Positions 12,122 through 22,520 of a stretch of 43,412 nt of DNA are shown here, one piece after another. The notes under the pieces are model-generated. The model saw nothing but the letters and a program-made list of their open reading frames with translations, did not search any database and was not told the DNA's origin. A program made the translations under genes and the position numbers. The first letter of the stretch is position 1, and the number at the start of each line of letters is the position of its first letter. The stretch covers positions 1-43,412 of the forward strand of contig JAJFLR010000122.1 of NCBI GenBank assembly GCA_021772565.1, given 5' to 3'. Source of the stretch: Opitutales bacterium (lineage in GTDB: Bacteria > Verrucomicrobiota > Verrucomicrobiia > Opitutales > JAJFLR01).

Positions 12122-14023
12122 TTAAATAAATTCTCTAATAATTTCAAAAACCATTTCAGCTTTTATTTTATTTATTAAACTCCCTCCAATGTCTTTGCAA
12201 TCATCTGGTTGAATTATTATTTTTTTTGATTCAAAAATTGGTCTGGTACGGATTGGATTTGTTGGGCCGAATAACGCTACTAAAGGAATTCCCATTGCAT
12301 TAGCCAAATGCATGCCTCCGGAATCATTGCACACTATCAACTGACATTTGCATATTTCATCAGCAAATTGTTCGAGCGTTGTATTACCGACAAAATTTTC
12401 TATTCGATCCGATGAAATCTTTTTGATTATTTCATCAACAATCAGTTGATCAGTTTTTGTGCCGAAGAGATGAATTTTAACATCACTGCTTTCAACCAAA
12501 ATTTTATTGATCAAATCAGCCCAATTTTTTTGAGGCCATCGTTTTTCAGGATTGTTTTCAGATCCACAAATTAATCCGATAATTTTATTATGTGGATTTT
12601 TTTTTGTATCATTTTCAAAAGGCTGATAATTAATATCTCCATGCAGTCCAAAGTGCCTTAAAAATTTTTCCCAAACATCTGTCTGATGAATTTTGGCTTC
12701 ATCAATGTCTGTTGGCACCTGCCAGTTGTGAGTTAATAACGGTCGAGATTTTCCCGGTCTTAGCATACCAAAACGTTGCGGCGTTTTTGTTAAGTAAGCT
12801 TCCATATCTCCTCTGTATGAATTGGTAAATAAAATGAACGTATCTGGATATTTTGTTTTTAATTTTTTAAAAAACTTATAGTAACCCGATTTCTTTGGGG
12901 GTAATGCGATGAATGAATCAGCAACATTTAATTTTTCCAGAAGTTGAACAAATTCATTTTTAATTAGAAGAGTTATTTCTGCATCCGGTCGACTTGTCCG
13001 CAAAGTTCTGAGTAGAGGTAATGCCATAACTACATCGCCTAACCAATTCGGCATGCGAATCCAAAAACGTGTTTTCTTTGGAATAGACTTATAATTGTGA
13101 TACTCCCCTGCTTCACTTATATAATTCTTTTTTTGCAAAAGCCTCAATCTGTGCCGAGGTGTATCTTGATTCTTCCAACGTTTATGACTCCACAGCCAAT
13201 CGGAACATTGATCATCAGAAATTGAAAGGTGATTCTCCAGCCAGGCATTTGATGCTACAGTAACTGATATTGGTTCGGGATCACAGTTAAGCTGTTGTAG
13301 TTTTAATTCAGATTTCCAAAATCCGAGTCGATGGGAATAGATTATAATTGTTCGCGCATTAAATTTTTTTGCGATGATGCCAGGCAAATCAGTTGCCGAC
13401 GCAACTCTACCGAACAATGTAATGAGTGCACCACTATTGCCGGCATTCTGATCATAAAGTATAGAAAGCCATCCATTATCGCGGATAAGTGATAACGTTT
13501 TAGTCAATCCATCTTTTCTAGAAAACAATTCAAAGCCAAAACGTTCACGTGTGTCCTTCACCCAATTATTTAGATATTTATTTTCAAACGGTCTAAAAAT
13601 TGCACCCAAACGCGGAGGGTTGTCCAGCACTAATGGAACCAGAGGTAAGGTTTCCATTAAAGTAAAATGCGGCGTTAAGGCAATGCCTCCACTCCCCTCT
13701 TTTGTTAAGTGGGCAATTTGATCCAAGGTTTCGCTGGAAATTGTCAGACAGCTTTTTAATTTTTTTTCATTGAGCCAGGGCGAGACTAAAACAAACATAG
13801 TTAGCTCAATTAATCTTCGCAGACATTCTCTGGCAATGTTATGATGCCATTCTAAGGGCTTCTCGGGAAAAGCATGATGTAAGTTAGAAAGTGCCGTGTA
13901 TTTTCTTTTTGATGGAAGGTAATAAATCAAGTCACCTACTATCTTACAAATTAAATGACAGAATGATTCAGGAAATAGTGCAAGAATCCATCCGACAATC
14001 TTTAGAATGTAAACCAGAATCAC
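12122..14023 (-). CDS. Fusion: lipid A-type acyltransferase + GT9 heptosyltransferase
   Basis: This 633-residue protein joins two envelope enzymes. Residues 1-300 match the LpxL/HtrB acyltransferase family: an N-terminal hydrophobic helix, the catalytic HX4E motif at H119-E124 (HFTLME), FRPFENKYLN near 143-152 and YDQNAG near 190-195. Residues 319-633 match glycosyltransferase family 9 (ADP-heptose:LPS heptosyltransferase): RMPNWLGDVVMALPLLRTLR near 323-342, and the nucleotide-sugar motif NDSGGMHLANAMG, followed by VALFGPTNP, near 568-592. Both active regions look intact. It is expected at the inner face of the cytoplasmic membrane, acting on lipid A or a related lipid and on its core sugar. 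It lies 30 bp behind hisF in the same direction. The exact acyl donor and sugar are not readable. Confidence 0.88.
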   Translation of the reverse strand: MILVYILKIVGWILALFPESFCHLICKIVGDLIYYLPSKRKYTALSNLHHAFPEKPLEWHHNIARECLRRLIELTMFVLVSPWLNEKKLKSCLTISSETLDQIAHLTKEGSGGIALTPHFTLMETLPLVPLVLDNPPRLGAIFRPFENKYLNNWVKDTRERFGFELFSRKDGLTKTLSLIRDNGWLSILYDQNAGNSGALITLFGRVASATDLPGIIAKKFNARTIIIYSHRLGFWKSELKLQQLNCDPEPISVTVASNAWLENHLSISDDQCSDWLWSHKRWKNQDTPRHRLRLLQKKNYISEAGEYHNYKSIPKKTRFWIRMPNWLGDVVMALPLLRTLRTSRPDAEITLLIKNEFVQLLEKLNVADSFIALPPKKSGYYKFFKKLKTKYPDTFILFTNSYRGDMEAYLTKTPQRFGMLRPGKSRPLLTHNWQVPTDIDEAKIHQTDVWEKFLRHFGLHGDINYQPFENDTKKNPHNKIIGLICGSENNPEKRWPQKNWADLINKILVESSDVKIHLFGTKTDQLIVDEIIKKISSDRIENFVGNTTLEQFADEICKCQLIVCNDSGGMHLANAMGIPLVALFGPTNPIRTRPIFESKKIIIQPDDCKDIGGSLINKIKAEMVFEIIREFI

Positions 14024-14860: not shown

Positions 14861-16621
14861 CTACTCACCAACCAAGGTAATGTCTGGCTCAAAAGTTACT
14901 TTTAGACGGTATTGTTGTTTTGGCCTCATTATCATAGGATGATCTCTGGTTAATGTCTGCAGGTAATTAATATTACCGTAATAAGTTTTATAATTTGGTT
15001 CGTTTGTTACATCTTCAGTATCACGCCATACTGCTTTAAAATCATCTCTTACCACATTGCATCTAACGCCCTCTTCACCAAATGTTAAAGTTGTTCCATT
15101 TCGATAATTTGAATGAGGTGAAGCAATCACCAATACATAACGCATACTGTTGAGTTTTACCTGACTTTTAACAGTAAAAATAAATTCACTGGTAATTTTA
15201 TTTCCACAAAATTCCCATGACACCTTGCAACTCCCTAGACCGGAAACCATTTCTTCATTTACAGTGATTAAATCGGGCTGTTCATAACGAAAATAAAACG
15301 AGTTTTTTAATCCGAGCCCGGTAGTACAGCGTTTACCATAAAAAGCAGGAACAATAACTTTTCCATCAAAGTTCAATTCCGGAAGCATTACAGGCAGAAA
15401 TTGATCAACCGGCCAATCGAATATACCGGGACAATGTGGAAATGAAAGAGAATCAGATTTTCCTTTTGCCGAAGCACCAACGAGTGGTAAATGAATATGC
15501 AATCCACACTCAGGATCATGATAAATAAATAATCCTTGTTCCTTGCGATTTCTCTTGTCAAAATTCACAAAGCGACCAGCTCTCTTATTTAAAAGATGTC
15601 TTGATTCCATTTTTCCCCCTATCGATCTAGCTAATCGAGCCCATTGACAGAGTGTTCGAGCACCGTCAAAATTTGCCATTCTAGAAGTATGGCGATCAAT
15701 TGTATTTCGTTCTTCATCTCGTATTACTAAAAAACCATGTTCCTGATCAAGATAGGTCATAAAGTAAAATTGAAAAAGCCGTCTTAAAATATCAGTATAA
15801 AATGGTTTTTGTGTATCAGAAATCCATCCATCGCGCATTGCCTGCATAATAATACTGATACTGTGTATTTGACCATAAGCTCCAATGCCATTACCAAAGC
15901 ACCAGCCCAAACCATCTTGTCTTACAAGGTCTGGCATAATTTTAATATATTTTTCTACACAAGTTCTTAAACTGGGAAGTTTACGTTCACGTAAATTTAA
16001 ATTAGCGGACAGTTGTAATGCTTGACGAATGAAGGTAAATGACATCAAACCATAAACATCAAAAACACCGCCCACACCTTTGTCAGATCCGTCATCAAAA
16101 TAATTACCTGAACTGTTTTGCTGAATTCGTTCAATAAATTTATCTATCAACTTGCCTGTTTCATCTTTTTTCGAAAGACCCATACTATAGCGAGTAACAG
16201 CCTTTGCTATGTTAAAAGCTTGATAATGATTCGTATAATCTGATCGAGCTAAAAGTCTTTGGTCTAATCTTTCGCGTGTGGGATCCAGTAGACGTTCCCA
16301 AACAGGATTACGATTTTTAGCCGGCCCAAACGAAAGCAAGGCCAGTGCTGCGTATGCTAACCCATTTTCATTTTCCTGATCACTAAATACCTGTAAAGTA
16401 ATACATCTTGCGACTAGATCAATTAGATCATAATCACCGAATTCAGTTTGATTTGTAACACGATAATACTCGCCAATTGCCAAGGCTGCATGTCCTGGTT
16501 CATCTATGCGAGTAGTCTCGCTACCGACAGGATCAATTGAACCATCCTCGTTGATAGCGTTTAAATTGTGACCCAATATTGATTGAGCCATGTCCAAGCA
16601 TTGATCGGCAAAATTTAGCAT
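14861..16621 (-). CDS. Unrecognised large protein, toroid-plus-beta-sandwich layout
   Basis: I do not recognise this 586-residue protein. Residues 1-350 read as repeated helix pairs with aromatic and histidine clusters (EPGHAALAIGEYYRV, DYTNHYQAFNIAKAV, GGVFDVYGLMSFTF, CFGNGIGAYGQIHS), like an alpha/alpha toroid of carbohydrate-active enzymes. Residues 390-586 read as beta-rich (SGLGSCKVSWEFCGNKITSE, TYYGNINYLQTL). This is the layout of polysaccharide lyases and some glycoside hydrolases, but no catalytic motif is certain. No signal peptide is present, so it should be cytoplasmic. It begins an apparent operon with hisF and the acyltransferase/GT9 gene and lies 85 bp behind metX. The assignment to a sugar enzyme is an inference. 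Confidence 0.6.
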   Translation of the reverse strand: MLNFADQCLDMAQSILGHNLNAINEDGSIDPVGSETTRIDEPGHAALAIGEYYRVTNQTEFGDYDLIDLVARCITLQVFSDQENENGLAYAALALLSFGPAKNRNPVWERLLDPTRERLDQRLLARSDYTNHYQAFNIAKAVTRYSMGLSKKDETGKLIDKFIERIQQNSSGNYFDDGSDKGVGGVFDVYGLMSFTFIRQALQLSANLNLRERKLPSLRTCVEKYIKIMPDLVRQDGLGWCFGNGIGAYGQIHSISIIMQAMRDGWISDTQKPFYTDILRRLFQFYFMTYLDQEHGFLVIRDEERNTIDRHTSRMANFDGARTLCQWARLARSIGGKMESRHLLNKRAGRFVNFDKRNRKEQGLFIYHDPECGLHIHLPLVGASAKGKSDSLSFPHCPGIFDWPVDQFLPVMLPELNFDGKVIVPAFYGKRCTTGLGLKNSFYFRYEQPDLITVNEEMVSGLGSCKVSWEFCGNKITSEFIFTVKSQVKLNSMRYVLVIASPHSNYRNGTTLTFGEEGVRCNVVRDDFKAVWRDTEDVTNEPNYKTYYGNINYLQTLTRDHPMIMRPKQQYRLKVTFEPDITLVGE

Positions 16622-18149: not shown

Positions 18150-18998
18150 ATGAAATTCATCAAATATCACGCACTTGGTAATGACTATTTAATATTAGAT
18201 CCTGTTGATATTGATAGAGTCCCAAATCAAAATCTGATTAGACTAATTTGTCATCGAAATTTCGGAATAGGATCAGATGGAATACTACTTGGACCAATAG
18301 TGACAGACAAAGCCGATTTTCAGTTGCGAATTTTTAATCCAGATGGGAGTGAAGCAGAAAAAAGTGGTAACGGGCTGCGTATTTTTTCACGTTACTTATA
18401 TGATAACAATAAAGTAAGTGATCAAAAATTTAGTGTCCTAACATTAGGTGGAGTAGTTCAATGTCAAGTGAAAGATTATGGCAAGACTGTAACTGTTGAA
18501 ATGGGAAAAATCAGTTTCAATAATGAAGATATCCCAGTAATAGGAGCAGATCGAGAAGTTTTAAATGAGACTATTGAAATCAATGAGAAAATTTACAATT
18601 TTTATGCTGCAACAATAGGAAATCCACATTGTGTAATTCCACTTGATGAAGTCACATCAAGTCTTTGTAATGAAATAGGCCCTATAATAGAAAATCACAA
18701 AAATTTCCCCAACAGAATAAATCTCCAACTTTTAAAAATAATTGATCGTAATAATATTCAAATCGAAATTTGGGAACGGGGTGCAGGTTATACTCTGGCA
18801 TCTGGTAGTAGTAGCTGTGCGGCAGCGGCTGTTGCATATAAAATGGGATCGGTGGACAGCAAAATAAAAGTCCATATGCGAGGCGGTACCATAGATATTG
18901 ATATTGGCTCAAACGGCATAATAACTATGCACGGAGCAGTCACTAAAGTCGGCACATTTTATTCTGACAATGAATTATTCGAATTCAATGCGTTCTGA
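18150..18998 (+). CDS. dapF: DapF-like PLP-independent epimerase with Ser/Ser active site
   Basis: This 282-residue protein is clearly a diaminopimelate epimerase homologue: KYHALGNDYLILD at the start, GSDGILL near 41-47, NPDGSEAEKSGNGLR near 63-77, GNPHCVIP near 157-164 and WERGAGYTLASGSSSCAAAA near 208-227. In DapF the two catalytic cysteines lie in CGNG and ACGTG. Here S72 stands in the first (AGT at 18363) and S218 in the second (TCT at 18801). The glutamate of the usual GVGET is Y214. Length is normal and there is no frameshift. So it may be a diverged epimerase of another substrate, a slow DapF or a non-catalytic paralogue. The gene symbol marks homology only. Confidence 0.85.
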   Translation: MKFIKYHALGNDYLILDPVDIDRVPNQNLIRLICHRNFGIGSDGILLGPIVTDKADFQLRIFNPDGSEAEKSGNGLRIFSRYLYDNNKVSDQKFSVLTLGGVVQCQVKDYGKTVTVEMGKISFNNEDIPVIGADREVLNETIEINEKIYNFYAATIGNPHCVIPLDEVTSSLCNEIGPIIENHKNFPNRINLQLLKIIDRNNIQIEIWERGAGYTLASGSSSCAAAAVAYKMGSVDSKIKVHMRGGTIDIDIGSNGIITMHGAVTKVGTFYSDNELFEFNAF

Positions 18999-20937: not shown

Positions 20938-21602
20938 ATTTTCTGTCAAATTGAAATAGTAGATGTAACATCAGGACAGGAAGCCTTAGATAGAATTGAA
21001 GAAAATAACTGGGCACTAATTTTACTGGATGTTCGAATGCCTAAAATGGACGGATATGAAATTGCGACAAGAATCAGACAAAGCTCTGACAATAGAAACG
21101 TCCCGATCATTTTTATGACATCAAGTGCTGACGATAGGCAAACACAAAAAGGATATGAAGTTGGCGCAGTAGACTACCTGATTAGACCAATCGACAGTTA
21201 CATTCTTACCAGTAAAGTTAAAATATTTATAGAGCTGTATTTACAACGAAGAAAATCTCAAGATCTAGTCGTTAAATTAGAGCATGAAATAATTGAACGT
21301 AAGAGTGCAGAATCTGAACAATTAAATTTAGAAGCTCAATTAAGGCATGCTCAAAAAATGGAAACTATTGGAACATTAGCAGGTGGCATAGCCCATGATT
21401 TTAATAATTTGTTAGGCAGTATAATAGGATATTCTGATCTCACCCTAAAACAAATTGATAGAAATACCCCAATTTATAGTTATCAATCTAAATTGCGTGA
21501 TGGTGCCAATCGCGCAGCAAACTTAGTTAAGCAGATTCTTACATTTAGTCGACAATCAGAACACAGACCGCGTCCCATCAAATTAAACACAGTAGTTAAA
21601 CT
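20938..21602 (+). pseudogene. Hybrid histidine kinase remnant (receiver + HisKA)
   Basis: After a TAA at 20935-20937 the frame opens without a start codon directly inside a receiver domain. The acidic DD pocket is missing. The phospho-acceptor segment LILLDVRMPKMDGYEIA and IIFMTSS are kept, but the usual lysine of YLxKP is R (YLIRPID). A linker coiled coil leads to a HisKA H-box, GTLAGGIAHDFNNLLGSIIG, near 21370-21426. Homology runs to about 21600 (FSRQSEHRPRPIKLNTVV), where the ATPase domain should begin; it is absent. The frame then reads on in nonsense to TGA 21702. It is 5' and 3' truncated, so not functional. Confidence 0.85.
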
Positions 21603-22520
21603 AGCAATGTTATCTCGCATGCGAATAATAAGAAAAATTATAAAATTGGCCTATCAGTTTGGTCAGGATATCCTTCAAGCGTTAAAGGGTTTAAAGAAGT
21701 GATGAATAAATCCGGTTATATTGAAGGAAAAAATGTACAGTATTTAAATGGCGTTAGTGGTGATATTCCAAAGCAGATAAAAATTGCCAATTTGTTTAAA
21801 GAGTTCAAACTAGATCTAGTTTATTCACTCACAACCACAGGGACAATAATTTTAAAAGAAACATTGCCACCCACAGTACCTATAATATTTTCAATTTGTA
21901 CTTATCCATCTGATACCGGACTCATAGATACCATCGATTATTCAGGAAATAACTTAGTTGGTTCTAGTAATTATGTTCCATTAGAAAATTATGTCAGACT
22001 ATTAAATGATTTTCTTCCCAACACAAAAACAATTGCTATTTTTCATCGAAAATTTGAACCAGACTCAAAAATTCAAGCCACTAATATAATTCGATTACTG
22101 AAAAAAAAACATATCAAGGTAATTGACCTTGAACCAAATAATTTAACAGAAGTTAAAGTTCTGGCATTAAAATATATTGATGAAATAGATGTTATCATGA
22201 CAACAATTGATACATTAATGCAAAATGGTGGTGAGGAAGAATTGATAAAATTATCACTAAAAAAAGGTGTGCCAATATTGAGTTCTAATAAAGCTGGGAT
22301 AGAGCAAGGTTCAACATTTGGTATTACCACTGACTATTATGAATTAGGAAAAATTTCCGGAAATATTGCAGTAAAAATTTTATCTAATAAAAAAACCCCT
22401 GCTCAGCTAAAAACTAAATTTCAAATTCCGGCTATAATTATGGTAAATAATAAAAGTTCTGAACTTCTCTCAATAAAAATTCCAGAAAATAAATATCCTA
22501 ATATAGTTTATGTAAGGTGA
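21600..22520 (+). pseudogene. ABC_sub_bind (TrpX/DUF534-like) protein, 5'-truncated
   Basis: The frame is open from 21600 and reads NYKIGLSVWSGYPSSVKGFK (from about 21633), then EVMNKSGYIEGKNVQYLNG. It matches the ABC transporter substrate-binding family PF04392, through NLVGSSNYVPLENYV and LKKGVPILSSNKAGIEQGS. The ATG at 21699 falls inside the family's first helix, so it is not the true start; the signal peptide has been lost. The 5' edge abuts the kinase remnant, and the protein could once have been the sensor domain of a hybrid kinase. The mature fold from 21633 on looks undamaged, so expression of a truncated product cannot be ruled out. Confidence 0.75.

Follow-up and report, generated by a model that had tools for sequence, protein, structure and literature searches.

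DapF, an enzyme of lysine and cell-wall synthesis that converts LL-diaminopimelate (LL-DAP) to meso-DAP, works through two catalytic cysteines. This two-thiol mechanism is the standard textbook example of how a proton is taken from an amino acid that is not activated; designed inhibitors of the enzyme, such as aziridino-DAP, alkylate these cysteines. On a 43,412-nucleotide stretch of DNA from an Opitutales bacterium (contig JAJFLR010000122.1, assembly GCA_021772565.1), termed the window below, a DapF homologue carries serine at both positions, raising the question of whether such a protein can be the DAP epimerase of its host and, if so, by means of which residues.

An intact DapF homologue with serine at both catalytic positions

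The gene occupies positions 18150–18998 of the forward strand and runs from ATG to TGA over 282 amino acids without an internal stop codon. Its product is assigned to the DapF family by the curated TIGR00652 model (250.4 bits, cut-off 114.65), scores 199 bits against PF01678, and falls far below the thresholds of the bifunctional DapF/glutamate racemase model (NF038284, 69.2 bits versus 350) and of the PhzF isomerase models (PF02567, 14 versus 27 bits; TIGR00654, 12.5 versus 76.2 bits). The AlphaFold model of the protein has a pLDDT of 94.3, and its best 26 PDB matches are all DapF or O-ureidoserine racemase chains (TM 0.72–0.91), the closest being the closed Anabaena DapF (9mro, TM 0.91). An initial sequence-only reading had described the frame as intact and the fold as well kept, and both statements hold.

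To place individual residues, we relied on the alignment with the crystallised Anabaena DapF (9mro). Ser72 (codon AGT, 18363–18365, + strand) stands at the first catalytic cysteine (Cys75 in Anabaena, Cys73 in Haemophilus influenzae), just before helix 73–85, and Ser218 (TCT, 18801–18803, +) at the second (Anabaena Cys224, H. influenzae Cys217), just before helix 219–231, confirming the earlier proposal that these two serines replace both catalytic cysteines. In a first count, Ser at positions 72 and 218 together with Tyr at 214 was present in 91 of 91 members of the branch to which the protein belongs, and Cys occupied the first catalytic position in 19/19 proteins of the Cys/Cys set.

Tyr214 (TAT, 18789–18791, +), a possible helper or base, is occupied by E, I, V, P or L in Cys/Cys enzymes. 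The earlier reading correctly located this tyrosine at the glutamate position of a 'GET' motif, but that glutamate, which it called conserved, is neither invariant in working DapFs nor a fixed catalytic residue: the Anabaena enzyme, which has been assayed and crystallised, carries isoleucine there ('GAGITLACG'; PMC12039745). DAP is instead contacted by the glutamate of the 'ERG' motif (Anabaena Glu215), present here as E209. Ser221 (AGT, 18810–18812, +) replaces a glycine found in 19/19 Cys/Cys proteins, the backbone NH of which (Gly227 in Anabaena) contacts the catalytic sulfur or side chain (PMC12039745). Ser221 lies three residues past Ser218, a spacing resembling that in the proline racemase superfamily, in which the catalytic Ser90 is held by Asn93, three positions on (PMC4113996); we regard this resemblance as a structural parallel, not as proof. 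Besides Y214 and S221, residues typical of the branch are Q193, Y13, Y6, K71, I78 and G48; K71 and S221 are nearly invariant, K71 being replaced by Ile in two members.

In contrast to the catalytic pair, which is Ser/Ser in the entire branch, the residues that bind DAP are retained. Asn11 (18180–18182; Anabaena Asn13) corresponds to the contact of the proximal amine, Asn63 (18336–18338; Asn66) to that of the distal L-amino acid, Asn158 (18621–18623; Asn164) and Asn191 (18720–18722; Asn197) to those of the distal carboxylate, and Glu209-Arg210 (18774–18779; Glu215-Arg216) to those of the distal amino and carboxylate groups, all on the + strand. Ten positions matching Anabaena DAP contacts are invariant in the branch, namely N11, G44, N63, G73, N74, N158, N191, E209, R210 and G219, of which N11, G73, N74 and G219, with S/T220, form the proximal end of the site and N63, N158, N191, E209 and R210 the distal end; G44 is the plant/cyanobacterial form at that position. 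Overall, every DAP-binding residue described by Lamer et al. for the Anabaena enzyme, including the amides at the helix N-termini, is invariant or conservatively kept.

The Ser/Ser proteins form a separate and widespread branch

The homologues come from whole genomes sampled across the order and the phylum, plus named genomes; many of the sampled genomes are metagenome assemblies. The 131 aligned homologues (a second count) comprise 95 Ser/Ser proteins, 35 Cys/Cys proteins and a single Ser/Cys protein, so that the Ser/Ser pair is indeed kept in related genomes, a check that the sequence-only reading had proposed. The tree separates a Ser/Ser branch (SH-aLRT 98) from a Cys/Cys branch (SH-aLRT 94), and on this topology a single origin of the Ser/Ser branch is shown. 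The view of the protein as something other than an ordinary DapF is upheld.

The branch spans about ten phyla. Within Verrucomicrobiota it includes Opitutales, Cerasicoccus, Coraliomargarita and Opitutaceae; outside, it is found in KSB1, Calditrichota, SAR324, Desulfobacterota/Myxococcota metagenome-assembled genomes (MAGs), Chloroflexota, Spirochaetota, Omnitrophota, Cyanobacteriota (Mastigocoleus, Spirirestis) and Bacillota (Sporomusa, Pelosinus, Desulfotruncus). In eight close pairs of the branch dN is far below dS. The branch is previously unremarked, the open-access literature having yielded no earlier report of a Ser/Ser DapF (subscription papers lay outside the search), and it often provides the only DapF of its host. 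Genomes of Bacillota, Cyanobacteriota, Desulfobacterota and Spirochaetota carry the Ser/Ser gene in addition to a Cys/Cys DapF, and there this second copy may be redundant or different in function.

Several individual loci depart from the general pattern. A 1.0-Mb genome of the same order (G033) encodes, at L110:6167-7069, the homologue in which Ser occupies the first catalytic position and Cys the second, and this protein has a very long branch in the tree; LysA and DapL were not detected in this reduced genome. In KSB1, Calditrichota and Spirochaete MAGs (L090, L091 and L093) the Ser/Ser dapF matches are fragmented or spread over more than a single frame, which reflects assembly faults or decay, and L090 also contains a masked stretch. 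The 12.7-Mb assembly of Mastigocoleus testarum BC008 has two near-identical Ser/Ser dapF neighbourhoods (L072 and L074) as well as two Cys/Cys copies with equal scores; the assembly is probably duplicated, and the copies are then no true paralogues.

A single candidate for the LL-to-meso step was found in the source genome

In the DAP pathway, the LL-DAP aminotransferase DapL produces LL-DAP, DapF converts it to meso-DAP, and the DAP decarboxylase LysA and MurE consume meso-DAP. The known bypass of DapF is the meso-DAP dehydrogenase Ddh, an NADP-dependent enzyme that yields meso-DAP directly from tetrahydrodipicolinate. The source genome, which is 95% complete, contains no DapF homologue other than the Ser/Ser protein, the only other match (C89) having an E-value of 0.056. 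It encodes a DapL (G000:C44; NF004937, 681.8 bits versus a cut-off of 585), without a plant-type DapL above cut-off, a LysA homologue that at 273 bits falls short of the TIGR01048 threshold (297.9), and a MurE (531 bits, with the DNPR motif), and no Ddh (TIGR01921) was found. With DapL, the LysA homologue and MurE present and Ddh missing, no candidate other than the Ser/Ser DapF was found for the LL-to-meso step. The sequence-only reading had suggested two ways round this protein, and neither is tenable: a DapL route is present, but its product, LL-DAP, still needs an epimerase, and another DapF is lacking from the genome.

The low LysA score is common in the order, in which LysA is of a divergent type with about 240–285 bits (G000:C116:26294-27520 and many relatives); the same type is encoded in KSB1 dapF-dapL-lysA operons. 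A specific tie between Ser/Ser and divergent LysA was considered and rejected, as divergent LysA also occurs in the Cys/Cys family f8, and LysA exceeds the cut-off in two Ser/Ser genomes, G012 and G049.

The gene neighbourhoods of relatives agree with this place in the pathway. In two loci outside the order (L040 in G052 and L053 in G056) the Ser/Ser dapF, dapL and lysA form an operon with gaps of 27–33 and 5 nt, from which dapB-dapA diverges, along with lysC in L040; neither genome has a second DapF or a Ddh. Other arrangements are dapB-dapA-dapF (L046), lysC-dapB-dapA-dapF (L048) and dapF followed by dapA-dapB (L049). Apart from such DAP-pathway genes in some lineages, no conserved dapF neighbour that might supply a thiol was found across the branch.

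Ddh or a Cys/Cys DapF takes the place of the Ser/Ser gene in relatives

Within the order, the near-complete genomes that lack DapF are G015, G037, G249 and the 0.8-Mb G043. The first three possess Ddh, and G043 lacks both LysA and a DapL-like enzyme. G015 comes from a genus that also includes the Ser/Ser genomes G035 and G050. In G015 and G037 both DapL types are gone as well, a loss to be expected after a takeover by Ddh. In the phylum as a whole, Ddh is present in 18 of 21 DapF-less genomes, but of the 52 near-complete Ser/Ser genomes tested only 2 have it (Fisher p about 4e-12, a value that overstates independence, the genomes being related); Ser/Ser DapF and Ddh occur together in G034, G045 and G160. 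In families f8 and f24 a single Cys/Cys DapF is found where relatives have the Ser/Ser one. The Ser/Ser gene is thus swapped for either of two enzymes that make meso-DAP.

Four reduced genomes (G006, G011, G024 and G025) have lost LysA and kept the Ser/Ser DapF and the DapL-like enzyme, which points to a use in peptidoglycan. DAP has long been reported absent from subdivision-4 Verrucomicrobia, and the Ser/Ser DapF bears on their contested cell wall. In Opitutaceae (Lacunisphaera and Opitutus terrae) DAP was found by GC/MS at a low level, with the isomer not resolved, and no DL-DAP was seen on TLC (Rast et al., PMC5303756). From Opitutaceae proteins (e.g. L042 and L044) we infer that the DapF of Lacunisphaera and Opitutus terrae is likewise of the Ser/Ser type.

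Function and mechanism of the Ser/Ser DapF

Epimerase function is strongly suggested by this genome evidence, and we consider it likely that the Ser/Ser protein is a DAP epimerase in the cell. The fuller interpretation, in which the window gene encodes a working LL-DAP to meso-DAP epimerase from a distinct DapF branch whose Cys/Cys acid/base pair has turned Ser/Ser, is probably correct. Whether the two serines are themselves the bases is less certain, the chances appearing about even. We lean slightly towards the general proposition that a natural, cofactor-independent amino-acid epimerase takes an alpha-proton of pKa near 29 without cysteine, by means of Ser/Ser or of Ser and Tyr, and that it serves as the sole meso-DAP source in many bacteria of several phyla.

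Under the serine mechanism, S72 and S218 at the helix N-termini would carry out the 1,1-proton transfer, closure of the site would shut out water and leave the serines desolvated, and S221 and Y214 would act as helpers that tune them; the changes around the site that accompany Ser/Ser comprise Y214, the Gly-to-Ser exchange at 221, Q193, Y13, Y6 and K71. Precedents for parts of such a mechanism are available: a 4-hydroxyproline epimerase of the same superfamily works with a Ser/Cys pair (PMC4113996), and some aspartate/glutamate racemases have Thr in place of one Cys (PMC8142540). Serine is on paper a poor base (PMC8142540), and in the homologous HisR, exchanging either Cys for Ser by engineering removes most of the activity, turnover being greatly reduced (PMC11602996); because of this loss, the accompanying residue changes must matter in the Ser/Ser branch. 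A further Ser/Thr relative in the superfamily is a dehydratase rather than an epimerase (PMC4113996).

The main rival on mechanism assigns the role of base to Y214. In its wider form, DAP is epimerised by Tyr214 or by a relay via Ser221, Lys71 or ordered water, with the serines only positioning the substrate. Y214, which adjoins the C-terminal half-site, is invariant and specific to the branch, S221 and K71 being nearly so, and racemases and epimerases of other folds are known to use Tyr as a base (PMC8142540). We nevertheless judge this alternative unlikely, as the invariant S72 and S218 occupy precisely the two helix N-termini where the thiols are otherwise placed, K71 is Ile in two members, and one epimerase of the proline racemase superfamily has an established catalytic Ser at the first position (PMC4113996).

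A different possibility is that the protein has been repurposed as an isomerase, lyase or racemase for another substrate, e.g. glutamate, or has become bifunctional, meso-DAP being made by another enzyme. The Chlamydia DapF racemises glutamate too (PMC5885031), Ser/Thr in the superfamily accompanied dehydratase activity, and among 52 genomes of the order the glutamate racemase MurI (TIGR00067, E<=1e-15) turned up in just 3, which leaves the other 49, the source genome included, in need of another source of D-Glu. The absence of MurI from many PVC bacteria has already been reported (PMC5885031), and a specific link of its loss to Ser/Ser was rejected, given that MurI is also missing from Cys/Cys DapF genomes and from the DapF-less G015. 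As the distal-site residues that recognise DAP's second amino acid do not vary, the gene shares operons with dapL and lysA and is swapped with Ddh and Cys/Cys DapF, and the bifunctional model is matched so poorly, repurposing appears quite unlikely.

E. coli DapF activates RppH, and by analogy the Ser/Ser protein might be a dead DapF kept for a binding role, with MurE and LysA using LL-DAP directly. The loss of both catalytic thiols and the unresolved DAP isomer in Opitutaceae (PMC5303756) would fit such a pseudoenzyme, a reading that we find very improbable in view of the replacement of the gene by Ddh, itself a meso-DAP maker, of the Ser/Ser genomes G012 and G049, which combine a LysA above the curated cut-off with the absence of Ddh, and of strong purifying selection over the whole active site. 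Finally, base-call errors at 18363 and 18801, which the sequence-only reading had named as grounds for refutation, or a pseudogene, have a negligible chance of being the explanation: each Ser codon is one base away from a Cys codon, but the same residues recur across phyla in 95 homologues of independent assemblies, the frame is intact and dN/dS is low.

Relation to known systems

Compared with Cys/Cys DapF (TIGR00652; Anabaena 9mro, H. influenzae 1gqz, E. coli 4ijz), the window protein shares about 32% identity, the fold (TM 0.91 to 9mro), all DAP-binding residues, the pathway position and the operon partners, whereas its branch is distinguished by Ser/Ser, S221 for Gly, Y214, Q193, Y13, Y6 and K71 and stands apart in the tree. 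The proline racemase superfamily members with a catalytic Ser (PMC4113996) have a related two-domain fold, Ser for a catalytic Cys in a working enzyme, and a residue three positions on that holds this Ser; unlike in the window protein, only one of the two Cys is replaced, the substrates are other ones and similarity is remote (12–17%). The bifunctional DapF/glutamate racemase of Chlamydia trachomatis (PMC5885031, NF038284) is likewise a DapF of the PVC superphylum in hosts without MurI, but the window protein is far under the cut-off of its model (69 versus 350 bits). Ddh (TIGR01921) resembles the Ser/Ser DapF as a maker of meso-DAP with a complementary distribution, while being an unrelated NADP-dependent enzyme acting on tetrahydrodipicolinate.

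If this large natural branch does the same job without the cysteines, as appears to be the case, thiols would not be required for DapF chemistry, which would challenge the two-cysteine textbook mechanism, and the Ser/Ser branch would offer a natural comparison set for why cysteine is used. Natural insensitivity to thiol-directed inhibitors and to oxidation would also be implied.

Other genes of the window

Three further regions of the window were noted. On the minus strand, a single frame at 12122-14023 fuses a lipid A acyltransferase domain with a glycosyltransferase family 9 (heptosyltransferase) domain, and a 586-aa protein without Pfam matches at 1e-5 is encoded at 14861-16621 between hisF and metX. 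On the plus strand, a short frame at 21037-21702 contains a partial response-regulator domain and a HisKA domain and is directly followed by an ABC substrate-binding-like frame, an arrangement that looks like pieces of a larger two-component sensor.
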